From a virus: 64,000 nt of DNA. Shown here piece by piece: positions 3,093 to 60,370 of the stretch. The stretch is from positions 124,001-188,000 of IMG/VR virus record IMGVR_UViG_3300009430_000004. One strand, 5' to 3'. The number at the start of each line of letters is the position of its first letter. Within the stretch, counting starts at the first letter, position 1. Under the pieces are notes generated by a model. It was not told where the DNA came from and searched no databases. It worked only from the letters and a program-made list of their open reading frames with translations. A program made the translations under genes and the position numbers.

Positions 3093-4301
3093 ATGAGTAA
3101 GTTACCTGATAAGGAGAAAGCTTATCTATTAAGCTTGAAACCTGAAGATATAACATTTGATTTATTAGTGGACTTATTTGCAGATACTGCAAAGGTTGTT
3201 GATGGAAAAGCAAAGACTATTCCTAGCAGGATTAAAACTCATGACGAGTTTGATTTAAATCCTGGTGAGTATTTCAACAAAGAAAAGGTTCATACAAATG
3301 CTGGTCTTTTCATATATAATAAACTTATTGTGGAAAGAAGATTATCTGGAGTGTTAGGCTATGTCAATACTCCACTAAATAAGGGAGCCGTTGAAAAAAT
3401 AGAGGATAAACTATCAAATGCATTACTTAATGATGAAATTACAGTTAATGATATGGTTGAATATCTGGACAGAACTCAATGGTTAGCAATGCAATTTCAT
3501 GCTGTTGTGAGTGGTTCATTCACGATGAATACCTTAAAACCAAATACTAAGGTAGTTAATGAAAGAAAGCGTTTATTAAAAGAAAACCGAGAAAAACTCC
3601 AGAATGGAGATGTTGATGCTGCGGTTAAGATTGAAAAACAATTATTGGCTGTTGCAGATAAGGAGCTTGCTGGTGACCCAGGTCTAGATTTATACAAGTC
3701 TGGGGCAAGAGGTTCATTCGGTAATAACTTTAAGAATATTAGTGTTATGAAAGGTCCCGTATTTAATCCAGTAACAGGTCAATTCGATATAGTTGAATCT
3801 AATTTTATGGAAGGTATCAATAAGGAAGAGCTTCCTATTTACGGCAATGCTATCATTACTGGAGCATATCCTAAAGCAATCGGTACTGCCGTTTCAGGAT
3901 ATTTCAGTAAACAGATTATAGCAGCTCTTCAAGCCGTTGTACTTGATAAAATAGGTTCAGATTGTGGTACTAAGGGGTATCAGAAAATAACAATACATCC
4001 AGGTTCAGAGAAAGATTTCTTATATCGTTTCGTCATAGAGGGAAGTAAGTTAGTTGAATTAACTGACAAGAATATTTCTAGCTATGTCGGTAAGGAAGTT
4101 AAGATGAGGTCACCTATGTATTGCATCGGCAAGAAGTTATGTAGAGCATGTGCTGGACGAATGTATGAAAAACTTGAAATTGATAATATTGGACTTACAG
4201 CAGCAAGAGTTTCCTCAACGCTGCTGAACTTATCAATGAAAAAGTTCCATGACTCCAGTGCAAAAATAACTCAAATAAAGATTAATGATTTAGTGTTATA
4301 A
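3093..4301 (+). CDS. rpoC: RNA polymerase beta' subunit, C-terminal fragment (phage multisubunit RNAP)
   Basis: A 402-residue protein colinear with the central to C-terminal part of bacterial beta'. KSGARGSFGN (near residue 203) matches the conserved SGARGS segment. It is followed by an MKG..FNP..G..D segment, SGYFSKQ, and DCGT with Cys291. MYCIGKKLCRACAG carries Cys344, Cys350 and Cys353, and together with Cys291 this rebuilds the second beta' zinc site. The end, SSTLLNLSMKKFHDSSA, corresponds to the bridge-helix/trigger-loop region (FHxGG in bacteria). The protein stops there, so the last part of beta' is missing or encoded elsewhere. A late promoter lies 27 nt before the ATG and a terminator directly follows. 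Known family: phiKZ/AR9-type split RNA polymerases. Late expression would favour the virion-packaged enzyme (inference). Confidence 0.9.
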   Translation: MSKLPDKEKAYLLSLKPEDITFDLLVDLFADTAKVVDGKAKTIPSRIKTHDEFDLNPGEYFNKEKVHTNAGLFIYNKLIVERRLSGVLGYVNTPLNKGAVEKIEDKLSNALLNDEITVNDMVEYLDRTQWLAMQFHAVVSGSFTMNTLKPNTKVVNERKRLLKENREKLQNGDVDAAVKIEKQLLAVADKELAGDPGLDLYKSGARGSFGNNFKNISVMKGPVFNPVTGQFDIVESNFMEGINKEELPIYGNAIITGAYPKAIGTAVSGYFSKQIIAALQAVVLDKIGSDCGTKGYQKITIHPGSEKDFLYRFVIEGSKLVELTDKNISSYVGKEVKMRSPMYCIGKKLCRACAGRMYEKLEIDNIGLTAARVSSTLLNLSMKKFHDSSAKITQIKINDLVL

Positions 4302-4615: not shown

Positions 4616-6028
4616 ATGAAGCGAAACAATGTTCGACTCATCAAATTAAATTGGAATGAGGAGTGTGAAAAAGATTTTATTATAGGTAAGGGTTTTGAAA
4701 TAACCCAACCCGCATTTAAGGGTGAAGAAAAATGTATGTATGGAACCCACTCCCCCCTATATGCAACTGACTGGGAAGATGAAGATGCTTTCTCTGAAAG
4801 ATATTCCTGTCAGTGTAAAAATCTTAGGGGTAGGGTGTATGAGGACGAGATATGTCCTGTATGTAATACAAAGGTTAGATTTAGAGATGTTGATTTAAAG
4901 ATGTTTGGATGGATAAAACTGTACAATCAGAATGTAATTCATCCAATATTTTATAAGATGATTAAATCGGTAATTGGAGATAAGCAATTTACTGAGATTA
5001 TAGAATTCGATAAAGACATGACCAAGAACGGAATAATTATAAATAAGAAAAGTAAGAATCCGTTTAAAGGTATAGGTCTTATCGAGTTTGAAGAAAGATT
5101 CGATGAGATTATGGCTTATTTCAGAGAGAAGAAAAAGAATAAGATTGACATTATAGATGAAATAATGAATGAAAGAGAAAAGGTATTCACATCATGTATA
5201 CCTGTTTACTCAGCAGTATTAAGACCTGTTTCATTCAGAGGTGAAACTTACTTCTATAATTCTATAGATAAGAAGTATAACTCAATCTTTTCATTGTCTC
5301 GTTTACTGAATAATACAGGTCCAGTATCCAGTAAAAAGAAGGTTAAGAAGAAAAAGATGGATGAACCTACAATACTACAAACACTTCAAAAGAAGTTGAT
5401 AGAACTGTGGGAATTAATATTCATGCAGATAAACCAGAAGGATGGTCATATAAAAGACCAAATACTAGGTGGAAGAATAAACTTCTCTGCAAGAAATGTT
5501 ATCATACCTGATCCTGACCTTAGAGCCGATGAAATTAGATTGTGTTACTTATCTTTCCTTGAATTATTCAAGTATCAAGTAATATCTCATCTAGTTAAGA
5601 TGAATGACATAACAGAAAACGAAGCTTATGAGCAGTGGTACAAAGCCACTATTATATATAACCCGAAGATATATGAATTAATGATGCACTTGGTTAAGAA
5701 GAGAAAACCTAAAGTGCTTATAAACAGAAACCCGACAATCAACTACGGGTCAATGTTATTGATGAAAGTTGTTGATATCAAGAATGAATATAAAGAAGAT
5801 TATACAATGAGTCTACCAATACAAATACTTGGTGTACTTAATGCAGACTTCGATGGAGACATTCTCAATATTATAGCAATGATGACCAAGAAAACTGCTA
5901 AGGCATTTGATAAGATATTCAATCCTAGAAAGAATATGTTTATTTCTAGAAATGATGGATTATTTAATGATGACTTTAATCTATTCAAAGACCAGTTAAC
6001 AGGTTTGAGGGAATTCAATTGTATCTAA
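4616..6028 (+). CDS. rpoC: RNA polymerase beta' subunit, N-terminal fragment with catalytic NADFDGD
   Basis: 470 residues that match the N-terminal part of beta'. A zinc ribbon is formed by Cys65, Cys67, Cys80 and Cys83 (CQC...CPVC). DQILGGRINFSARNVIIPDP corresponds to the LLGKRVDYSGRSVI segment, and INRNPTINYGSMLLM to LNRAPTLHR. The Mg-binding loop NADFDGD is at residues 409-415 and all three Asp are intact. The protein ends about 55 residues later, at the point where the separate C-terminal fragment would continue. The gene lies downstream of that fragment, so the natural N-to-C order is reversed. An AACT variant of the late promoter is 26 nt upstream of the ATG, the ribosome binding site is AAGGAGG, and a terminator follows. 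Confidence 0.92.
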   Translation: MKRNNVRLIKLNWNEECEKDFIIGKGFEITQPAFKGEEKCMYGTHSPLYATDWEDEDAFSERYSCQCKNLRGRVYEDEICPVCNTKVRFRDVDLKMFGWIKLYNQNVIHPIFYKMIKSVIGDKQFTEIIEFDKDMTKNGIIINKKSKNPFKGIGLIEFEERFDEIMAYFREKKKNKIDIIDEIMNEREKVFTSCIPVYSAVLRPVSFRGETYFYNSIDKKYNSIFSLSRLLNNTGPVSSKKKVKKKKMDEPTILQTLQKKLIELWELIFMQINQKDGHIKDQILGGRINFSARNVIIPDPDLRADEIRLCYLSFLELFKYQVISHLVKMNDITENEAYEQWYKATIIYNPKIYELMMHLVKKRKPKVLINRNPTINYGSMLLMKVVDIKNEYKEDYTMSLPIQILGVLNADFDGDILNIIAMMTKKTAKAFDKIFNPRKNMFISRNDGLFNDDFNLFKDQLTGLREFNCI

Positions 6029-8748: not shown

Positions 8749-8777
8749 ATTAAATAAACAGTAAAGAGGTGAGAGAT

Positions 8778-10022
8778 ATGAATTACGCAATGGCGTCAAC
8801 ATCGTTAGCTCATACGTATGGAAATATAACTGCATTTATGACTGAGTTCGTAAAAGGGTTATTCCCTAAGAATTATTTCAAAACAGTCCACATAAGTTCT
8901 TCTATTGCTTATAGGCAGTTTAACGTTTTCCAAAATACTAATAAAGAGTTTATAAAGAAAAATAAGCCTATGCTTATAATACGACCAAGAATAGATATAA
9001 GTGATAATGATACATTCCTAAATAATACTTTCCTTACAACAAGGATAGATGATACTGTAACGGATTTGGATTTTAGTAATCTTCAACCGTTTATAGAAGA
9101 CAAAGAAAAGGGTGTATTCATACGATATCTTTTAAACAGATTGAAGATGAGTTTTGACATCACTATTATCACAGAAACACAGATGGAGCAAATCAACCAG
9201 GCACATTTTATAAAGAATAGAATTAGACAGGATAGACCTTTTTTCTTGTCAACATCTCTCGAAAGTTATGTGCCTAAGGAGTTCATGCAAATGCTCTCCA
9301 AGAATATAAATGTACCAATGTACGATGAAAATAATAACATAAAACCATTCTTGGATTATGTAAACGGTACATCGGTATATCCAATAACGTATAAGATGAA
9401 AAACTCTTCAGGTAATGATGAGTTCTTTAGATTTTATCCAGCTAATTTGGATACAATTTTAACTGGTTTATCAACAGACGATGGGTCTAAAAAAGGTTTT
9501 GTTTCTGACGCATTCGCTGTTAATTTCAGTTTAACTACGGAATTTTATACCGCTGGTTTATATTATTATTTGACCACCAACAAGAAGATAATAGAGGATG
9601 TTGAAATTTCAATTTTGAATGATGATACAAGTATTATTCCTGTATTTACTGTAAGTAATATCTATGATGTGAATTTACCTCATGGGTGGAATATGTACAC
9701 AGCTCCAATGTATAAAGTAGAGGTTGATAAAGTACCTGACACAATGAATATAAGTTCTTTATTCAACCAAAGCCTAGTAAAGACTATAGCTTATCATCTT
9801 GAAAAGGGGATACCTCTATCAACCTTCATTCACACCACTGTGATGAAGGACAATACAATTTTAGACCCCACTAAAGGGGAGTATAAAATAGACTTCGAAA
9901 AAATGGAATTAATTACTTATAACACAAATAAAGTATCCACATATAGACTAATAATTCATGTGAATACTTTGTATATCAATAATTTATTGGTTGATATCTT
10001 GAGACTAGACGAAGAGAGGTGA
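8778..10022 (+). CDS. Putative virion structural protein
   Basis: 414 residues from the ATG at 8778. The upstream GTG at 8769 is rejected because AAAGAGGTG is best spaced for the ATG. Soluble, Asn/Thr/Phe-rich and beta-rich, with no catalytic motif seen. A late promoter match (8737-8748) lies 30 nt upstream. The size, composition and late signal suggest a virion component such as a tail or neck protein, without a firm family assignment. It ends 7 nt before the next gene, which is probably in the same operon. Confidence 0.6.
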   Translation: MNYAMASTSLAHTYGNITAFMTEFVKGLFPKNYFKTVHISSSIAYRQFNVFQNTNKEFIKKNKPMLIIRPRIDISDNDTFLNNTFLTTRIDDTVTDLDFSNLQPFIEDKEKGVFIRYLLNRLKMSFDITIITETQMEQINQAHFIKNRIRQDRPFFLSTSLESYVPKEFMQMLSKNINVPMYDENNNIKPFLDYVNGTSVYPITYKMKNSSGNDEFFRFYPANLDTILTGLSTDDGSKKGFVSDAFAVNFSLTTEFYTAGLYYYLTTNKKIIEDVEISILNDDTSIIPVFTVSNIYDVNLPHGWNMYTAPMYKVEVDKVPDTMNISSLFNQSLVKTIAYHLEKGIPLSTFIHTTVMKDNTILDPTKGEYKIDFEKMELITYNTNKVSTYRLIIHVNTLYINNLLVDILRLDEER

Positions 10023-10029
10023 TAACCTC

Positions 10030-10581
10030 ATGGAGGGATTCAGGATTAAAATTATGGGCAATCAAAATATATACACTAATGAGGTAAATAACTTTTATTT
10101 ACCAAGGTACACCACCGTAGTACCTATAAATAGTGCTACTGCCGATATGGCAGAAAAAATACAATTTTTAGGGTTCACCATTGAAGATTTCGATGATGAA
10201 CAAATGAGAGTAACACTTCCATATCATTGGACTCACTTTGAGGTGAGTGATGAGCAGGAAGTAATAGTTGATGTGTTAGGTAGAATACGGGTTGTTATTG
10301 ATCCACATCGAAATAAAATGGAATTACTGCGAAGATTTGGATATGCAATTAATCATGTCAATATACCTGATAAAAAGGTATCTGGAATGCAGTGTTTCAT
10401 AACCGATATGAATAAGCCTGTGACTCAAATAGATATAAACCCACAACAATATCAACAATATTTAGATGAAGCTGGAGGCTCTGTTGACAATCTATTGAAT
10501 ATTTGCATAACTCAATGTCAAAATATACTAGATAAAGAGTTTCCAGACTGGAGAAATGAATTAGCTTATTGGAATGAATAA
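10030..10581 (+). CDS. Hypothetical phage protein, probably structural operon
   Basis: 183 residues (MEGFRIKIMGNQNIY...), with no recognised domain. The ribosome binding site GAGGTGAT overlaps the stop codon of the upstream gene and can pair with ACCTC just before the ATG (GAGGT gata ACCTC), so initiation may depend on ribosomes finishing the upstream gene. A strong terminator overlaps the end of the gene. Confidence 0.65.
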   Translation: MEGFRIKIMGNQNIYTNEVNNFYLPRYTTVVPINSATADMAEKIQFLGFTIEDFDDEQMRVTLPYHWTHFEVSDEQEVIVDVLGRIRVVIDPHRNKMELLRRFGYAINHVNIPDKKVSGMQCFITDMNKPVTQIDINPQQYQQYLDEAGGSVDNLLNICITQCQNILDKEFPDWRNELAYWNE

Positions 10582-10613
10582 TTAGATGGCATCCCAGCCA
10601 TCTAATTATTTTT
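10577..10613 (+). terminator. Intrinsic terminator
   Basis: 14-bp stem AATAATTAGATGGC/GCCATCTAATTATT, then T-rich. Confidence 0.85.
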
Positions 10614-10618
10614 ATATT

Positions 10619-10630
10619 TATATATTATTA
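10619..10630 (+). promoter_or_regulatory. Early-type element TATATATTATTA (ppk1)
   Basis: Follows the terminator of the upstream gene; 43 nt before the ppk1 ATG. No CGTA at the expected distance. Confidence 0.5.
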
Positions 10631-10673
10631 CAACAGATAAAAATACAGCGTACGTTATAAGGAGGGTAAAAAA

Positions 10674-12833
10674 ATGTCACATAGTGTTGCTATAACAGAT
10701 GTTTATAGAAGAGAGCTTTCAGAGTTTAATTCTAAATTCAACGACCCAAAGTTTTATATAAATAGAGAGTTAAGTTGGATAGAGTTTAACAAGAGAGTTT
10801 TACACCAAGCACTAAGAAAAGATATTCCTCTATTGGAAAGATTAAAGTTTCTAGGTATAACTAATTCAAATCTTGATGAATTCATAATGGTGAGATTTTC
10901 ATCTGTAATGAATAGAGTTATCAATGATTCTGAGGATGAAGATATATCAGGACTTAAACCCATAGATGAGTATCAGGAATTATTGGACCAAATCATGGAA
11001 TTTAAAAGTGTTCAAGCAGACTGTTATGATAGATTATCTAAAAAGTTAATTAAGACTAATATAATAATTAGTCAATATCAACAACTGAGCAAGAAGGAAA
11101 AGGAGCATGCAGAGAAGCTATTCTATAAAAATATCTTCCCATTACTAACTCCTATCACCTATGACACGACTAAAGATTTTCCATTGATAAGGTCTAAGCA
11201 ACTTAATATAGTTGTAGCATTAGAAGACAGAAAAAATGCTAATCTAAATGTAATCTCGATAATTCCCATTGATAGTGGATTGGATAGATTATATAAGATT
11301 GAAACCGACAATAAAGACGAGGATATTAAGTATATTTTATTAGAAGAGATAATTCATGCGTTCCTAAATAAGATATTCGTTAATAAGAATATCATATATA
11401 GTGGATGTATGAGAATTCTAAGGGAGGCTAATATTGAATTAGAACACAATAAAGACGTCTATATAATAGATAGGATGAAGCAAACCCTTATTCAAAGAGA
11501 GTTTAGTCGTCCGATATTCATGGATGTTCATGAGTCAATTCCTAGACATGTCCTAAAGATATTGACTAAGATATTTGATGTTGATAAGAAGCATGTCTTC
11601 AAATCAAAAGGTTTAGTAGACCCATCATTCTTAGCATCAATGCCTATAAAGAGCCATGCTTTGGAATACGAACACTTTGAACCACAATACCCTCAAGAGT
11701 TAATAGGTGAACATGATATGTTTACAGCCATAGATACAAATGACATAATCCTACATCATCCATATGAAAGCTTTGGACCTGTTATAAAATTCCTGGAACA
11801 TGCTGCTCAAGATGATAGTGTTTTAGTAATAAAACAAACTCTTTATAGAGTATCATCATATGAGTCACCAATAGTTGAAGCTTTATGTAAAGCTGCACAG
11901 AATGGTAAACAGGTTAGTGTTCTATTAGAGATTAAGGCTAGATTTGATGAAGATAGGAATATGTCCCTGATTGAGAAATTGAAATTATCTGGTTGTAAAA
12001 TAATCTATGGAGTTGAAGAGTTAAAAACTCACTGTAAGTTAATTCTTGTGGTTAGAAAAACAAGTAAAGGATTAAAGACATATTGTCATATAGGAACTGG
12101 TAATTATAATGATAAGACAGCAAAGATTTATACAGACTTATCTTATTTCACTTCAAATAATAAGATAGGTGAAGACCTGTTGTCAATATTTAATATATTA
12201 TCAGGATTTTCAGAACCTGCGAGTGAAGGAAACAAAATATTCTTCTCTCCATTCAATCTTAGAAGCAAATTATATACTCTGATTGATAGAGAGATAGAAA
12301 ATGCACGAAAGGGAAAGAAAGCATTTATAACTCTTAAATTAAATTCTCTATCTGATAAAGGAATGATACGGAAATTATACCAAGCTGCTTCATTCGGTGT
12401 TAAGATAACAATATTCTGTCGAGGAGTTTGTTCAATGAAACCTATCAATAAGAATATAACAATTAAAAGTCTTATAGGTAGATACCTTGAGCATAGTAGA
12501 ATATATTACTTTTACAATAATGATAAGTCTGAGATTTATATATCAAGTGCAGACTTGTTAACAAGAAACTTGGACAGAAGAGTAGAACTCTTAGTACCAT
12601 TAACAGATAGTGAAGTTAGGACAAAATTATTTGGCATTATAAGTGCTTATTTCAAAGACACTTGTAATACCTATATCATGAATTATAAGGGAGAGTATCA
12701 GCTATTAGCCAAGGAAGAATGTTTTAATCTGCATGAGTTCTTTATGGATGAAGCTATTAATAACTATAAGCTGAGAAATATTCCCAAGATAACATTTAAA
12801 AATAAAAAGAAATATGGGGATAGCAATGTTTAA
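10674..12833 (+). CDS. ppk1: Polyphosphate kinase (PPK1 family)
   Basis: 719 residues, close to the usual length of bacterial PPK1 (E. coli 688). It makes polyphosphate reversibly from ATP through a phosphohistidine. The N-terminal domain carries the family signature NRELSWIEFNKRVL, then LLERLKFLGITNSNLDEF. The catalytic half has RFDEDRNM, GVEELKTHCKL with the expected phosphorylated His453, then YCHIGTGNYNDKTA with His472, spaced 19 residues as in E. coli (435/454). The C-terminal domain has SSADLLTRNLDRRVELLVP. All hallmark residues are intact, so it is probably active. An early-type TATATATTATTA motif lies at 10619 and a good ribosome binding site (AAGGAGG) precedes the ATG. A PPK1 inside a phage genome is unusual. 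Confidence 0.95.
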   Translation: MSHSVAITDVYRRELSEFNSKFNDPKFYINRELSWIEFNKRVLHQALRKDIPLLERLKFLGITNSNLDEFIMVRFSSVMNRVINDSEDEDISGLKPIDEYQELLDQIMEFKSVQADCYDRLSKKLIKTNIIISQYQQLSKKEKEHAEKLFYKNIFPLLTPITYDTTKDFPLIRSKQLNIVVALEDRKNANLNVISIIPIDSGLDRLYKIETDNKDEDIKYILLEEIIHAFLNKIFVNKNIIYSGCMRILREANIELEHNKDVYIIDRMKQTLIQREFSRPIFMDVHESIPRHVLKILTKIFDVDKKHVFKSKGLVDPSFLASMPIKSHALEYEHFEPQYPQELIGEHDMFTAIDTNDIILHHPYESFGPVIKFLEHAAQDDSVLVIKQTLYRVSSYESPIVEALCKAAQNGKQVSVLLEIKARFDEDRNMSLIEKLKLSGCKIIYGVEELKTHCKLILVVRKTSKGLKTYCHIGTGNYNDKTAKIYTDLSYFTSNNKIGEDLLSIFNILSGFSEPASEGNKIFFSPFNLRSKLYTLIDREIENARKGKKAFITLKLNSLSDKGMIRKLYQAASFGVKITIFCRGVCSMKPINKNITIKSLIGRYLEHSRIYYFYNNDKSEIYISSADLLTRNLDRRVELLVPLTDSEVRTKLFGIISAYFKDTCNTYIMNYKGEYQLLAKEECFNLHEFFMDEAINNYKLRNIPKITFKNKKKYGDSNV

Positions 12834-13161
12834 AAAGATTCAATTATTACTACTGAAATTTAAACTGAGAATGTATGAGAGTGAAGCTAAATGGTATGAG
12901 GAGAGAGGTTGTTATGATGACTGGTATCATGAACATGGAATACCGAATCTAAAAAGGGATATTAAGGAGCTTGAAATAACTATCAAGAATCCTCAGCAAA
13001 GGACATTTTGTTATTGCCCTAATGAAGAATGTAATAATGAATTAATTAGTAGTGATAGTTTTGTAAGTGACGATGAGGTCGTCACTTACATATGCACAAA
13101 ATGTGGCACTGTATCTAAATGGTATTTTGATGCACCGTGTCCAATACTAATAAAGGAATAA
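12826..13161 (+). CDS. Zinc-ribbon protein
   Basis: 111 residues from the ATG at 12826, overlapping the ppk1 stop codon (an in-frame ATG also exists at 12814). A basic helical N-terminal half is followed by a likely zinc ribbon: CYCPNEEC around residue 64 and CTKCG around residue 95. The overlap with ppk1 indicates co-translation and possibly a related task, though that is inference. A bidirectional terminator follows. Confidence 0.65.
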   Translation: MFKKIQLLLLKFKLRMYESEAKWYEERGCYDDWYHEHGIPNLKRDIKELEITIKNPQQRTFCYCPNEECNNELISSDSFVSDDEVVTYICTKCGTVSKWYFDAPCPILIKE

Positions 13162-13166
13162 AAAGA

Positions 13167-13199
13167 TGAGATGTGTATATTACACATCTCATTTTTTTT
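13167..13199. terminator. Terminator between convergent genes
   Basis: TGAGATGTGTA/TACACATCTCA, 3-nt loop; T run on the plus side and an A-rich flank for the minus side. Confidence 0.85.
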
Positions 13200-41356: not shown

Positions 41357-41366
41357 TATATATTAT
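41357..41366 (+). promoter_or_regulatory. Early-type element TATATATTAT
   Basis: TATATATTAT, 20 nt before the ATG of the Cas4/RecB-like nuclease gene. It starts the replication operon. Confidence 0.5.
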
Positions 41367-50892: not shown

Positions 50893-53319
50893 ATGGAAAA
50901 GTTTGTAGATGATGTTATAGAGCATAAAGAGGATGACATCGAGAAAATACAGACTAAACCCAATATGTATATCAGCTACTCAGGTAGAAGGGGTTCTAAA
51001 CAGTTAGCTTATGAAAACATCAATAATGGTATTGATGAATGCATTAACCCTAATTCACCTGGAGATGAGATTGATATTGTAATTGATGAGACTGAAAACT
51101 CAATAAGTGTAACCGATAATGGTAGAGGAATTCAGTTTGAAAAGATGGAACTTGTCTGTACAAAGTTACAGGCTGGAAGTAAATTTACTAGAGAGGGAAG
51201 CGGTGGTTCTGCTGGTGAAAACGGTGTAGGTATGACCGCTATGAATGCTCTCTCAGACTGGTTTGAAATCATTTCATATAGATATGGTGAAAGAGCCAAG
51301 GTAAGATTTGAGTTAGGAAAGCTAGTTCAACCTCTTACTGTAAAGAAAGTATCTGGGGATAAACATGGAACAACGGTCGCATTTAGACCATCATCTATGT
51401 TCCTAGGAGAAGATTGTGCTATAGACTCTGATGAGTTATTGGCATGGACTGAAAAAATTATTTGTTTAGTACCACCTGAAATAAAGGTAAACTTTAATGT
51501 GATTAAGAAAGGAAAAGAATCAACAATCCAAAAGAAATTTAGAAATAAAAATGGTCTTTACGACTATTGCAAGAAGTTGGCTAAAAAGCCGCTTATAGAC
51601 CCAATTCATTTTATGAGAACAATGAAAATGATGGAGAGAGTGAATACAATAACACCATCTAATTTAGATGATGCTATGAAATCACCAAACTCGACATTTA
51701 AAGACGTAGAACGCTTTATTGGGCTAGAAGTGGCATTTACGTTCAATTCTGGTAGTGTAGACATGGTTGCTGATTCATTCTGTAATTTTATTAACACAGT
51801 AGAGAATGGTGTGCATGTAGATGCAGTTAAAACAGGTATATTACAATACCTAACTAAACAGACAAAAGATATGATGTCTGAGAAGGAAGCTAAGAATATT
51901 GATATAACCTTTGGTGATGCAGCTCAAGGTTTAGTATTAACAGTATACTTGAGCACTAATATGCAACCTCAGTTTGCATCTCAGACTAAAGAGAAGTTAA
52001 CAAATAACGATTTCTTCAAACCTCTAAGAGATATGTCTTATAGAGCTTTGGATGAATATTTTAAGAAGAATACAAAAGAGCTGAAGAAGCTTACTGATAT
52101 GATAAAGACTAATGCTAAGGCTAGAATAGAAGCCAACAAGGTTAGAAACTCAGTCATTAAAGGTGAGACAACTTCACTCGATGAGCATAAATTAAAGAAC
52201 TTTGCTCCTGCAAATAATAAGGGTAGAAATGAGTATAGAGAGTTATTCTTGATAGAAGGAGACTCAGCAATGGGCTCTGCTAGACAAGGAAGATTCGATA
52301 ATGACACTCAAGCACTATTTGCCCTTAAGGGAGTCCCCCTAAACTCATTTAGCTTAAAGCTTGACAAAGTATTATTAAATGATGAGTTTAGAGGATTAAC
52401 AAAAGTCTTAGGTTGTAACATAGGAGAAAGATTTGACATAACTAAGTTGAAGTATAAGAAGATTATCATCATGACTGACGCAGATATTGACGGTAATAGA
52501 ATTACATCACTTATTTGTGCATTCTTCTTAGTGCATATGCCTGAGATAGTAAAACAAGGTTATCTGTATAAAGCAGTTACGCCTTTATATAAAATAAAGG
52601 ATAATAAGAAACCTTTCATACTCAATAAACAAGAGTACATTGAAGTCTTTGAGGAAAGAGTTAGAAAGAACATCAGACTTATTAATCCTGAAACAAAGGT
52701 TGTATTCAAGGAAAAAGATATGAAGGAATTCTTGTTAAATAACAGAGAATACCTTGAAGAATTAGATAGAGTAGCAAATCATTTCGCAGTACATCCTATG
52801 ATAGTTGAATTCTTAGCTATACATATGGATGATAGCGACTTCCTCAAAAAGCTTAGAAAGAAATTCCCTGAATTGAAAGTTGATGAAGACAATGTATTGT
52901 CAGGTATATATGAAGGTAGATATCAGAATATAATACTTGATAAGATATTCAATAAAAGAGTCAACACTTTGAAGACTCTTATTAGAGAAGTCAATCAGAA
53001 TAAAGCTTATTACATTCTTCATGAAGTTAGAGGTAAGGAGTTCGAAGATAGAGGGTTAATGTCAATCGGTGAGTTGTTAACATTATGTGAAAAGTTCCAA
53101 CCTGAGATAGAAATGAGGTATAAGGGACTTGGTGAGTTAGACCCAGCTAAACTAAGAGAAACAACTCTTGACCCGAATAATAGAATACTTATCAAACTTA
53201 CTCTTGAAGACTTGGAAGCAGAGTTAACTAAGTTTAGAATATTACACGGAGATGACTCTGAAGAAAGAAAGAAGCTTATGGCACACTTCAAAATCAATAG
53301 GGAAGATCTTGATAACTAA
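50893..53319 (+). CDS. gyrB: Type IIA DNA topoisomerase, ATPase/TOPRIM subunit (GyrB/ParE-like)
   Basis: 808 residues. The GHKL ATPase domain has NNGIDEC (Glu-bearing N-box), VTDNGRGI and GSAGENGVGMTAMNALS. The TOPRIM domain has FLIEGDSAMGSARQGR with Glu455 and MTDADIDGN with Asp529/531/533. The C terminus has RYKGLGELDP-type KGLGELDPAKLRETT. With the next gene it forms an A2B2 topoisomerase that relieves or introduces supercoils during replication of a very large genome. It is longer than Firmicute GyrB (about 640) because of insertions between TOPRIM and tail. Whether gyrase or topo IV cannot be told from this subunit. Confidence 0.93.
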   Translation: MEKFVDDVIEHKEDDIEKIQTKPNMYISYSGRRGSKQLAYENINNGIDECINPNSPGDEIDIVIDETENSISVTDNGRGIQFEKMELVCTKLQAGSKFTREGSGGSAGENGVGMTAMNALSDWFEIISYRYGERAKVRFELGKLVQPLTVKKVSGDKHGTTVAFRPSSMFLGEDCAIDSDELLAWTEKIICLVPPEIKVNFNVIKKGKESTIQKKFRNKNGLYDYCKKLAKKPLIDPIHFMRTMKMMERVNTITPSNLDDAMKSPNSTFKDVERFIGLEVAFTFNSGSVDMVADSFCNFINTVENGVHVDAVKTGILQYLTKQTKDMMSEKEAKNIDITFGDAAQGLVLTVYLSTNMQPQFASQTKEKLTNNDFFKPLRDMSYRALDEYFKKNTKELKKLTDMIKTNAKARIEANKVRNSVIKGETTSLDEHKLKNFAPANNKGRNEYRELFLIEGDSAMGSARQGRFDNDTQALFALKGVPLNSFSLKLDKVLLNDEFRGLTKVLGCNIGERFDITKLKYKKIIIMTDADIDGNRITSLICAFFLVHMPEIVKQGYLYKAVTPLYKIKDNKKPFILNKQEYIEVFEERVRKNIRLINPETKVVFKEKDMKEFLLNNREYLEELDRVANHFAVHPMIVEFLAIHMDDSDFLKKLRKKFPELKVDEDNVLSGIYEGRYQNIILDKIFNKRVNTLKTLIREVNQNKAYYILHEVRGKEFEDRGLMSIGELLTLCEKFQPEIEMRYKGLGELDPAKLRETTLDPNNRILIKLTLEDLEAELTKFRILHGDDSEERKKLMAHFKINREDLDN

Positions 53320-53351: not shown

Positions 53352-53361
53352 TATATATTAT
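53352..53361 (+). promoter_or_regulatory. Early-type element TATATATTAT
   Basis: Follows the terminator of the gyrB-like gene; 32 nt before the ATG of the gyrA-like gene. Confidence 0.5.
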
Positions 53362-53393
53362 TGATATAGCAATGATGAGGGAGGTAATTGTTA

Positions 53394-55793
53394 ATGGGAA
53401 AGAAAGAAAAAAAGAAACGTAATAAAACTGCCGATTATAACGGCAATATAGAAATACGTAATATAGGAAATGAATGTACAGCACTTATGAAGATATTCGG
53501 TGCTAACAATAATCTTATGAGGCATCTTCCATTCGTAACAGATGGATTAAAGCCTGGTGAGAGAAGAATACTTTATACAATGTATGAGGAGCTTAAAGCT
53601 GTATATAATGGTAGATTTAAAAAGGTATCTGCTATTGTAGGGCAGACATTATTCTATCACCCACACGGTGAAGCTCCAGTATATGATACAATAACAAAAT
53701 TAGGTCAGCCATGGAATAACATTCAATGTCTAGTAGATGGAGGAGGAAACTTCGGTTCACCTATGGGAGATGATGCAGGAGCTTCTCGTTACATTGAGGC
53801 AAGATTGAGCTTCTATTCCCATAAGTGTTTCTTTGAAGAGTTTAGTCCTAACATAGTAGATATGAAGCTCAATTATCTTAATGATAGAAGAGAGCCTGAA
53901 TATCTTCCATCAAGATATCCAAATGTGCTGATTAATAATACCTTTGGTATAGGTTATGGAGTTGCATGTGGTCTTCCTACTTATAATCTAAAAGAAGTTT
54001 TAGCTTTAACCATAAAACTTTTGGATGACCCAGATTATGAAGATGTAACTCTTATACCTGATAGTCCAACAGGGGCTTATGTTATAGATGAAGGACAATT
54101 TAAAGAAATATCTGAGACTGGAAAAGGTAAGTTTAAAATGAGAGGTGTTATGGACATTAATGAAACTGAGAACACCTTGACTATTAGATCAGTACCTCTA
54201 CAAGTTTCAGCAATTGATGTTAAAAATGACATCATATCATTATTTGAGGAAAATAAGATACAGGGACTAAAGGATATTAGGGACGACTCTGATATCGGTT
54301 ATATCGAGTTGGTTCTATATCTTAAGAAAGAAGTAGACCCAGTATCCATAATGCATACTATATACACTAAGACAAATATGGAGAAGACATTCCCTGTAAA
54401 CTTCAAATTAATTGATGATTATGAGGATTTCGACTTCAATGTAAGGTCTTTACTTCTTAACTGGATTGACTTCAGAAGAGAAACAAAAAGAAGACTTTAC
54501 AATCATAAGCTCATTAGAGCTAGAGAAAGACAGCATATTCTCGAGATACTATTATTCATATTAAATAAGGATAATGCTGAGAAAACTCTGAAGATTGTAA
54601 AGCAGTCTGAAAATAAGAAAGAAATTATAAGTAAGCTTATGAAAGAATATGGTATATCATCATTACAAGCGGATACTATTTCGGAGATGAAAATGACTGC
54701 ATTCTCAAAGGAAGCTTATAAGAGATACGTGGAAGAGAAGAAAGATATTGACGACAAAGTTGAAAAGTTTGAGAAAATAGTACGTTCCTCAAAGAAAATA
54801 GACAAGATGATTAAAGAAGAACTTGAGGAAGGTATCAAACTATTCGGAGAGGATAGAAGAAGTAAGGTAATCACAATTGATGGTGAAACTAAGATAAGAG
54901 ATACTAATCACTTAGTTGTATTGACATTGAATGGTTTCATTAAGAAACTACCTGATAAGTCAACAACTATAGGATTTATCAATCAAGGTGACTATCCAAT
55001 TGAAATTATCGAGATTAAGAATACTTCTGATTTACTAATCTTCGATGAGACAGGAAAGATTTCTAAGTTGCCAATACATCTATTACCTAATAATGATTTG
55101 AACGGTGAGGGTGATAAGATAAGCAAGTATTGTGCAATCAATGGAAAGATTACAACAATAATTCCAAAACCTACAGATTTAGTGTTGTCTCAAGTTAAAG
55201 TACCAATATACTTCTTAATGGTTACAAAGAAAGGTGTCATCAAGAAGACTTTAGCTAATCATTATACTAACATCAAGAATGAGTTGTTAGGTATGATAGT
55301 TAAAGATGGTGATGAACTGAAATCAGTTAAGTTGTTAGCTGGAGATAAGAATGTCGTTATTTATACTAATAAAGGTTTTGGTGTAAGAATATCTTCAACT
55401 GAAATAAAAGAAACTAGCAGAATGAGTATAGGTGTTAAAGCTATTGAAATGGGACTTGATGAAGAAGTCATAGGGATGGATATAGTTAATGAGAAAGATA
55501 AATATCTATTCTGCTTAACCAATAAAGGCACAGGAAAGAAATCTTCATTGGACACTTTTGCTGTGATGGATAGGAATAGTAAACCTCTAAGATTAGTTAC
55601 TTTGGATGCTGACGAGGATTTAATGTTGGTTAGAGTGGTTAAGGGTAACGAGGTTTATAAAGCATATCTAAAGAATACAGTTGAAGAAATCAAATTGCAG
55701 GATGTAATAGAATTACCTAGATTATCTAAAGGTAAGAAACTAATTCCTGTAAGAAAAGGTGAGGTAATAATTGATATAAAAGAAGTGAAGTAG
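53394..55793 (+). CDS. gyrA: Type IIA DNA topoisomerase, cleavage subunit (GyrA/ParC-like)
   Basis: 799 residues from the ATG at 53394; the TTG at 53388 is less well placed relative to GGGAGGT. The winged-helix domain has DGLKPGERRILYTM, YHPHGEAPVYDTI and the active-site Tyr133 in DAGASRYIEARLS. It is followed by the tower and coiled coil, then a C-terminal beta-pinwheel with repeated strands (VVLTLNGFIKKLP, FLMVTKKGVIKKT, VVIYTNKGFGVRIS). No GyrA-box (QRRGGKG) is visible, so negative supercoiling is uncertain and a topo IV-like activity is possible. It has its own TATATATTAT promoter motif after the gyrB-like gene's terminator. Confidence 0.93.
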   Translation: MGKKEKKKRNKTADYNGNIEIRNIGNECTALMKIFGANNNLMRHLPFVTDGLKPGERRILYTMYEELKAVYNGRFKKVSAIVGQTLFYHPHGEAPVYDTITKLGQPWNNIQCLVDGGGNFGSPMGDDAGASRYIEARLSFYSHKCFFEEFSPNIVDMKLNYLNDRREPEYLPSRYPNVLINNTFGIGYGVACGLPTYNLKEVLALTIKLLDDPDYEDVTLIPDSPTGAYVIDEGQFKEISETGKGKFKMRGVMDINETENTLTIRSVPLQVSAIDVKNDIISLFEENKIQGLKDIRDDSDIGYIELVLYLKKEVDPVSIMHTIYTKTNMEKTFPVNFKLIDDYEDFDFNVRSLLLNWIDFRRETKRRLYNHKLIRARERQHILEILLFILNKDNAEKTLKIVKQSENKKEIISKLMKEYGISSLQADTISEMKMTAFSKEAYKRYVEEKKDIDDKVEKFEKIVRSSKKIDKMIKEELEEGIKLFGEDRRSKVITIDGETKIRDTNHLVVLTLNGFIKKLPDKSTTIGFINQGDYPIEIIEIKNTSDLLIFDETGKISKLPIHLLPNNDLNGEGDKISKYCAINGKITTIIPKPTDLVLSQVKVPIYFLMVTKKGVIKKTLANHYTNIKNELLGMIVKDGDELKSVKLLAGDKNVVIYTNKGFGVRISSTEIKETSRMSIGVKAIEMGLDEEVIGMDIVNEKDKYLFCLTNKGTGKKSSLDTFAVMDRNSKPLRLVTLDADEDLMLVRVVKGNEVYKAYLKNTVEEIKLQDVIELPRLSKGKKLIPVRKGEVIIDIKEVK

Positions 55794-57063: not shown

Positions 57064-57103
57064 GATATACGGCTAAAAACCGTATATCTTATCTTATTTT
57101 TTT
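57062..57103. terminator. Terminator between convergent genes
   Basis: AAGATATACGG/CCGTATATCTT with T run on both sides. Confidence 0.85.
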
Positions 57104-58268
57104 ATGCTTCTTCCTTTTCATAAAGGACATTAAATACTTCCCTTATATCCATCTTACCATCAAACATATCCTCATTGAACTTTCTTAACCAAGCTGAAAG
57201 CATTTGTTGCTTCTCATATGTTGGGTCATTGAGGTAGTTTTCATAGTAACCTTTATAAGCTGCAAGGTTATCCTTTAATTCTTCCTTCAAATCCTTCGGA
57301 AGGTTTGGATCATCCAAATCCCTTTCGAGTTTGTTAATCATATTCTTCATTCTTGTCTGATTCTTAGGATGTACACCTATGAATGTAGACATGATATTCT
57401 GCATAATTCCAGCTATGTCATCAATAACATTAAGAACTGGAACATTTCTAACTATTCTGTTGTACATTTTATTTGGGTCATTCTGCAACTTATCTAACGC
57501 TGTTGCAAGTGGCTGTGCATACCCATATGATGCAGCAAAGCTATCAGAGAATCTCTCCATACCATATCTAAATAGGTTTGATATGTCGAAATTAACAACC
57601 TGTTGAGCCATAGCAAGTGGGCTACCAAGTAATGGTCCAGAAATGTGATAAAGAAGTCTATTAAGCCCAGCACCTATATTATAGAATACTGATAGATACT
57701 TCTTAAAGAACCTTTCAACACCCATTCTGATTTCAGTTATTAACTGTACAACCCAATGCTGAACAGCCCAGCCTATAGGACTGTATAACAGAGTTGGTAT
57801 TGTGCATAGGAAGTAAAATGGAGATGTGTCAAAATTGTGTCCTATCTCATGAAGTATGATAGCCATCATTTCTTTCTCATTCAATTTAGTCTGAGAAATA
57901 AGTGCTGTGTCAAGGAACACATAGATTTTCAATCTCTCATTGATAAATTTACCTGATTCTTCCCTTTTCTCGATGTTCTTAAGATACATCATAGGGAAAG
58001 ATGATATTGGTGTGCAGGCATTAGGTACTGAATCTTGCCAGTGAATTTTAATATACTTAACTCCAAAGAAATCAGCAAGAATCTTCTGTAATTTCTGGTT
58101 AGGTTCTGATTTATCTATATCAGTCATCGCCCTGAAAATACTCTTATCGTTATCCTTTCTGATTATCTCTGCAATTTTAGCAAGTTCTGCCTCCGCTGCT
58201 TCGAATTGTTTAGGCTTACCTAGATAAGCTTCCATAACAGGGTTATTTTTTCTTGAAAAAATAGCCAC
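57102..58268 (-). CDS. Zinc metalloprotease, M48-like (HEIGH motif)
   Basis: 388 residues with a GTG start at 58268. The zinc motif HEIGH is at residues 140-144, a candidate third ligand Glu238 lies in MERFSDSFAASYGY, and HPKNQTRMKNM follows, an order typical of M48-type gluzincins. Hydrophobic segments around residues 150-178 could be membrane-associated. It may mature or degrade virion or host proteins. A late promoter match (58305-58316) lies 37 nt upstream, divergent from that of the next gene. It is not a usual prohead protease family. Confidence 0.8.
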   Translation of the reverse strand: MAIFSRKNNPVMEAYLGKPKQFEAAEAELAKIAEIIRKDNDKSIFRAMTDIDKSEPNQKLQKILADFFGVKYIKIHWQDSVPNACTPISSFPMMYLKNIEKREESGKFINERLKIYVFLDTALISQTKLNEKEMMAIILHEIGHNFDTSPFYFLCTIPTLLYSPIGWAVQHWVVQLITEIRMGVERFFKKYLSVFYNIGAGLNRLLYHISGPLLGSPLAMAQQVVNFDISNLFRYGMERFSDSFAASYGYAQPLATALDKLQNDPNKMYNRIVRNVPVLNVIDDIAGIMQNIMSTFIGVHPKNQTRMKNMINKLERDLDDPNLPKDLKEELKDNLAAYKGYYENYLNDPTYEKQQMLSAWLRKFNEDMFDGKMDIREVFNVLYEKEEA

Positions 58269-60336: not shown

Positions 60337-60370
60337 TAATAATATATACTTAGCGTGTCGTAAAATACGA
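60337..60370 (-). promoter_or_regulatory. Two-part early promoter (DUF4116 gene)
   Basis: Minus strand: TCGTATT then TATATATTATTA at the standard spacing; ends 36 nt before the ATG at 60300. Confidence 0.7.

Follow-up and report, generated by a model that had tools for sequence, protein, structure and literature searches.

Viral ppk1 as such is already known, from virome surveys and from Vibrio phage GR7B. Viral ppk1 has been recorded in viromes, and viral ppk1 and ppk2 were detected in reservoir-sediment metatranscriptomes (PMC13188868), where the passages on them present both as contig annotations and give no lineage, core-gene status or promoter class. Such genes have so far been listed in viromes as auxiliary genes, presumably topping up the host. 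Among isolated phages, Vibrio phages vB_VcorM_GR7B and GR11A also encode a full-length polyphosphate kinase 1 (PPK1), in a genome of roughly 200 kb. The phage studied here shares its type of RNA polymerase with Bacillus phages AR9 and PBS1 and Yersinia phage phiR1-37, and with AR9/PBS1 also an upstream neighbour gene and an early promoter sequence; unlike the phage studied here, none of these has a PPK1 match. Our open-access search found no literature pairing "polyphosphate kinase" with "jumbo phage", and polyphosphate is unmentioned in the jumbo-phage reviews examined. What appears to be new, as far as found in the open-access literature searched, is a vertically inherited, early-promoter core PPK1 of a jumbo-phage branch.

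PPK1 in an AR9-related jumbo phage

The window, i.e., the whole 64,000-nucleotide stretch analysed, corresponds to positions 124001-188000 of an IMG/VR virus record of 218,088 bases (IMGVR_UViG_3300009430_000004), for which a nucleotide search of known phage records returned no near match. The main features, in window coordinates, are:

3093-4301, plus strand: phage multisubunit RNA polymerase beta fragment (phrog_2962)
4616-6028, plus strand: phage RNA polymerase beta' fragment (PF00623; NADFDGD catalytic motif)
8769-10022, plus strand: conserved upstream neighbour of 417 aa, function unknown, clade marker (phrog_21946)
10576-10611, plus strand: predicted intrinsic terminator closing the upstream transcription unit (-18.9 kcal/mol, z -7.7)
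10619-10628, plus strand: TATATATTAT, core of a putative AR9-type early (virion RNA polymerase) promoter, predicted +1 at 10635
10660-10665, plus strand: AGGAGG ribosome-binding site of ppk, read from the sequence
10674-12833, plus strand: polyphosphate kinase 1, 719 aa, ATG start (Pfam, NCBIfam and predicted fold concordant)
12826-13161, plus strand: zinc-ribbon-like gene with a Cys-rich segment (111 aa from ATG 12826; 115 aa from 12814)
13160-13198, plus strand: predicted intrinsic terminator closing the ppk-zinc-ribbon unit (-20.7 kcal/mol, z -8.0)
50893-53319 and 53388-55793, plus strand: type II topoisomerase, gyrase B-like and gyrase A-like subunits

The split multisubunit RNA polymerase genes have their nearest counterparts in phiR1-37, vB_BpuM-BpSp, and further phages of the AR9/PBS1 type, and the record further encodes a DnaB-like helicase, an SbcD-like nuclease, an endolysin, and virion genes in a genome of about 33% G+C. 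Both a multisubunit RNA polymerase of its own and AR9-type early promoters were found, and these sequence features mark the record as a relative of the AR9/PBS1-type jumbo phages. The window also includes an M48-family peptidase-like protein on the minus strand (57102-58268; PF01435, E 6e-6).

The first-pass annotation had described a full-length PPK1 with all catalytic residues including H453, and domain, family, and residue comparisons bear this out. Pfam matches to each of the four PPK1 domains (N, middle, C1, C2) follow one another in the expected order across residues 28-680 (E 8.7e-30 to 8.5e-69), and the protein scores 727 bits against the NCBIfam equivalog TIGR03705 "polyphosphate kinase 1", well above the cut-off of 466. 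Alignment to E. coli PPK1 (1xdo) places phage H453 at E. coli H435 and H607 at the second active-site histidine H592, and pairs R392, R423, and R583 with R375, R405, and R564, respectively; these five columns were invariant across the rows scored (78 bacterial and 12 phage or phage-labelled). We take the catalytic status of these residues, with H435 as the phospho-histidine, from established knowledge of E. coli PPK1. A structure prediction from 9 phage sequences alone lacked depth and gave a pLDDT of 56, while an AlphaFold model built with 85 sequences after bacterial PPK1s were added reached 93.1. The best PDB match of this model is E. coli PPK1 1xdo over its length (E 8e-58, TM 0.84/0.88), with PLD-family structures matching more distantly, and the predicted fold is that of PPK1, with phospholipase-D-like catalytic domains; a search of a library of predicted viral structures gave no PPK1 match over the whole length. 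In close pairs, ppk has a dN/dS of 0.14-0.16, similar to that of the neighbour gene, which indicates purifying selection. As judged from these sequence features, the phage enzyme is very likely catalytically competent.

Compared to bacterial PPK1 (E. coli 1xdo/1xdp, TIGR03705), the phage protein thus shares domain order, fold, both histidines, and the checked arginines, but it is at most 43% identical to the sampled bacteria among the matches listed, falls on a separate branch, and has an early phage promoter in place of a bacterial context. The branch supplies biochemistry with PPK1s that are far from bacterial ones.

Distribution and inheritance of the phage ppk

To place this gene in a broader context, 2.9 million viral contigs were scanned with PPK1 and with the upstream phrog_21946 gene, yielding branch contigs of 65-264 kb; all phages of the ppk branch are metagenomic. 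PPK1 was identified on 14 distinct phage contigs, window included. Twelve phages carry ppk directly behind the phrog_21946 gene and in the same orientation, and in most of them a block of virion-type genes converges on it from the other side; in L011/L106 the two genes lie at opposite contig ends, and their adjacency assumes a circularly permuted genome. Two more distant relatives, G004 and G005 (L136, L135, L127), have ppk at another locus, and two partial, possibly incomplete contigs (G006 and G007) gave no ppk match. Homologues of phrog_21946 also occur in AR9, PBS1, and Staphylococcus jumbo phages (21-23% identity), there without a PPK1 match.

Beyond this branch, a PPK1 search of 50,697 phage records left only Vibrio phages GR7B/GR11A as credible carriers, in agreement with the earlier statement that PPK1 is rare in phages. 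The GR7B/GR11A protein shows about 33% identity and its gene lies in a different neighbourhood, and since GR7B falls outside this lineage in the tree (on a long branch), its ppk probably represents an independent gain.

Phylogenetic analysis placed the phage PPK1s (n = 14) on one side of a branch with 100/100 support, found in 100% of bootstrap trees, with all sampled bacteria apart. This grouping was recovered both in a 96-row tree and in a smaller, more careful one. The bacterial sample was picked by similarity from the matches listed, so that an unsampled closer donor is possible, and several rows had an unusual letter make-up. The closest bacterial PPK1s, both among the matches listed in the collection scan and in 399 Bacillota genomes, were from Clostridia (41-43% identity). 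The comparison with Firmicute PPK1 proposed in the first-pass annotation gave a divided answer: the best bacterial matches are indeed Clostridia, but the phage PPK1s make up a branch of their own that is not nested inside Bacillota. Distances between the phage PPK1s also correlate with those between the neighbour genes (Mantel rho 0.89, with 0 of 5000 permutations as high). These sequence comparisons indicate that ppk is old and maintained in the branch, and suggest that it represents a vertically inherited core gene in a single branch of the jumbo phages related to AR9.

Two further observations were made in these relatives. The RNA polymerase beta' gene is apparently broken up in L002 (492-2986), L004 (2616-3617), L100 (700-3862), and L107 (902-2530), with GIY-YIG-like homing endonuclease ORFs recognised by eye nearby, while the beta' gene of the window (4616-6028) is whole. 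AR9 and PBS1 DNA contains uracil, which lends interest to dCTP deaminase-like ORFs, also recognised by eye, near ppk in L005 (179-697), L107 (3624-4223), and L104 (2615-3196).

An early-type transcription unit

In AR9, 41 early transcription starts with the motif AAATATATATTAT-(6N)-G were mapped by dRNA-seq, and early transcription, which is independent of protein synthesis, was attributed to the RNA polymerase carried in the virion (PMC5312081). In the AR9 stretch, the sequence is exactly AAATATATATTAT at each of the four annotated early promoters. In the window, TATATATTAT lies 55 bp 5' of the ppk start, and it matches the core of the AR9 consensus while the first A's of the consensus differ and the predicted +1 is an A rather than a G; a G is found at this position in L002, L003, L004, L006, and L011. 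Exact copies of TATATATTAT are located 33-70 bp ahead of ppk in 10 of the 12 syntenic phages. L014 has a core with one mismatch, and in L005 the core precedes a two-gene unit in which ppk follows a small ORF. In G004 and G005, the sequence ahead of ppk has no early promoter core that could be recognised.

The window has 14 copies of TATATATTAT where 2.2 would be expected, nearly always in intergenic regions and mostly shortly ahead of a gene, and when spacing and purine were included, 46 sites were found across the whole record versus 7 for the reversed pattern used as a control. The motif is enriched in the relatives as well, and absent from the ~30-kb stretch with virion genes that follows ppk. 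A scan for sigma-70-type promoters around ppk returned 27 sites, hardly more than in shuffled sequences (21.5, sd 4.8). Sites of this type also show which genes this uncultured phage probably expresses early: early-type cores precede the gyrase A-like gene (at 53352), a Cas4/PD-(D/E)XK-like nuclease gene (at 41357), and the gene of a DUF4116 protein (at 60339).

Hairpins similar to the upstream terminator were found ahead of ppk in seven relatives, and the downstream terminator is overlapped by an opposite-strand terminator-like site facing the convergent genes. Because it has its own early-type promoter and flanking terminators, ppk reads as an insulated early-type unit. Assuming that AR9-type promoter specificity holds in the ppk branch, and by analogy with AR9, ppk is likely expressed early in infection.

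The second gene of this unit was considered separately. The downstream ORF has two possible starts, 12814 and ATG 12826, the second being the more plausible, and from either start it overlaps the PPK1 stop codon (12831-12833), as had been noted before. Since its start overlaps the ppk stop, translational coupling is plausible in the window's phage. The zinc-ribbon gene matches phrog_4005, of unknown function (E 5.8e-15), and a Pfam search assigned it to no family. A homologue was found in the window's phage only and in none of 11 relatives, and a Cys-rich gene behind ppk in L003 has no detectable similarity to it. The functional coupling to ppk that the first-pass annotation had put forward thus finds no echo among the relatives, and from its distribution the zinc-ribbon gene is best described as an accessory passenger, outside any conserved pair.

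Possible roles of PPK1 in infection

The PPK1 reaction is reversible. PPK1s are described as favouring the synthesis of polyphosphate, and PPK2s its degradation (PMC8776046). The PPK1 of M. tuberculosis favours ATP synthesis in vitro, with a kcat/Km of 5743 versus 35 per mM per s for polyphosphate synthesis (PMC3215733), so that the direction of the reaction is not readable from sequence. Exopolyphosphatase (PPX, PF02541) and PPK2 (PF03976) were both absent from the eight phage records searched, for which positive control genomes were used. Synthesis first is favoured because ATP is high early in infection, PPK1s prefer this direction, no phage exopolyphosphatase or PPK2 was found, and early expression is expected.

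The explanation that we consider best, and as a whole moderately probable, is that a competent PPK1, encoded by a core gene of the branch and expressed early, would initially synthesise polyphosphate. In this scenario, the virion-carried RNA polymerase would transcribe ppk within the first minutes of injection, while the takeover of the host is still under way, and the enzyme would exchange phosphate between polyphosphate and the ATP/NTP pool of the host, at first mainly making polyphosphate. The polymer would then store phosphate and energy and, as a polyanion, act on the chromatin, RNA, and proteins of the host, and the reverse reaction could later draw on it to recharge NDPs and dNDPs while phage DNA is being made. 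For net polyphosphate synthesis as the primary role, the chances seem slightly better than even; an energy or phosphate store and stress signalling by polyphosphate are possible, and an energy store and altered stress signalling had already been suggested from the first reading of the sequence. A PPK1 match was found in 61 of the 399 sampled Bacillota genomes and was missing from the other 338, hence the phage may bring an activity that its host lacks if this host belongs to the Bacillota, as its AR9-type relatives suggest. A conserved, insulated, early-promoter ppk points to a need for polyphosphate at the onset of infection, and an early, intact gene suggests that these phages alter host energy and phosphate chemistry from the start, which provides a concrete and testable link between polyphosphate and phage takeover.

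Use of the enzyme in reverse, i.e., tapping existing polyphosphate reserves of the host so that ADP, NDPs, and dNDPs are recharged as an energy and nucleotide supply for phage replication, is an alternative that we consider unlikely. With polyphosphate as the donor, the PPK1 of M. tuberculosis converts NDPs and dNDPs into virtually all NTPs and dNTPs, and its kinetics favour this direction; its H510 is linked to the reverse reaction (PMC3215733), and the residues corresponding to those of the M. tuberculosis reverse reaction are conserved in the phage PPK1, including H472, the counterpart of H510 by position. However, this use would require a polyphosphate-storing host, for which the scarcity of PPK1 among sampled Bacillota (the inferred host phylum) is unfavourable, and it runs against the described preference of PPK1s for synthesis, with the degradation-preferring PPK2 not found in the eight phage records.

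More doubtful still are readings in which polyphosphate acts primarily on DNA or on defence. A reading in which this jumbo-phage branch opens infection with polyphosphate synthesis, often in hosts without PPK1, and in which the polymer would be a signal or silencer of host or rival DNA and not a mere metabolic supplement, appears quite unlikely. Slightly less probable again is a role in counter-defence or silencing of rivals, with early polyphosphate and host nucleoid or RNA-binding proteins repressing genes of the host or of resident mobile elements, or polyphosphate buffering ATP against nucleotide-depleting defences. Polyphosphate in E. coli guides Hfq to the AT-rich DNA of prophages and mobile elements, which is thereby silenced (PMC10954037), and the early timing of ppk would fit such a function, but the phage genome is itself AT-rich and could be a target, and no link of ppk to a defence gene was seen. 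The relevance of Hfq-type polyphosphate silencing in these phages is speculation.

A late structural role, with polyphosphate or the enzyme taking part in DNA condensation, packaging, or virion metal content, is very improbable. While a large cluster of virion-type genes lies next to ppk, these are on the opposite strand and separated from it by terminators, and the early-type promoter found at ppk has no equivalent in the following ~30 kb. The ppk product would probably appear within the first minutes of infection, a timing that speaks against a role in packaging, and the DNA compaction suggested in the first-pass annotation is disfavoured by the early-type promoter and the terminator-bounded unit.

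Finally, although public phage records do hold contamination, as in Acinetobacter phage MD-2021a, the probability that ppk is a bacterial gene in a misassembled or contaminated contig, the outcome that would have undone the first reading, or a recent functionless stray capture is negligible given 14 contigs, a shared locus, a phage-only lineage, co-divergence, and purifying selection, and a bacterial or chimeric origin is excluded because relatives carry the same gene at the same place (12 phage contigs).

Several database entries are not credible phage carriers of PPK1. In "Acinetobacter phage MD-2021a", ppk sits among bacterial pqq, mod, and ent genes, and the PPK1s of two fecal scaffolds fall among Lachnospiraceae in the tree. 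The bacterial-looking public "phage" records, with pqq/mod/ent beside ppk or a Lachnospiraceae-placed PPK1, are L098 (CAKLQF020000010.1), L096, and L099 (MT835512.1, MT837100.1), and they would mislead counts of phage ppk.
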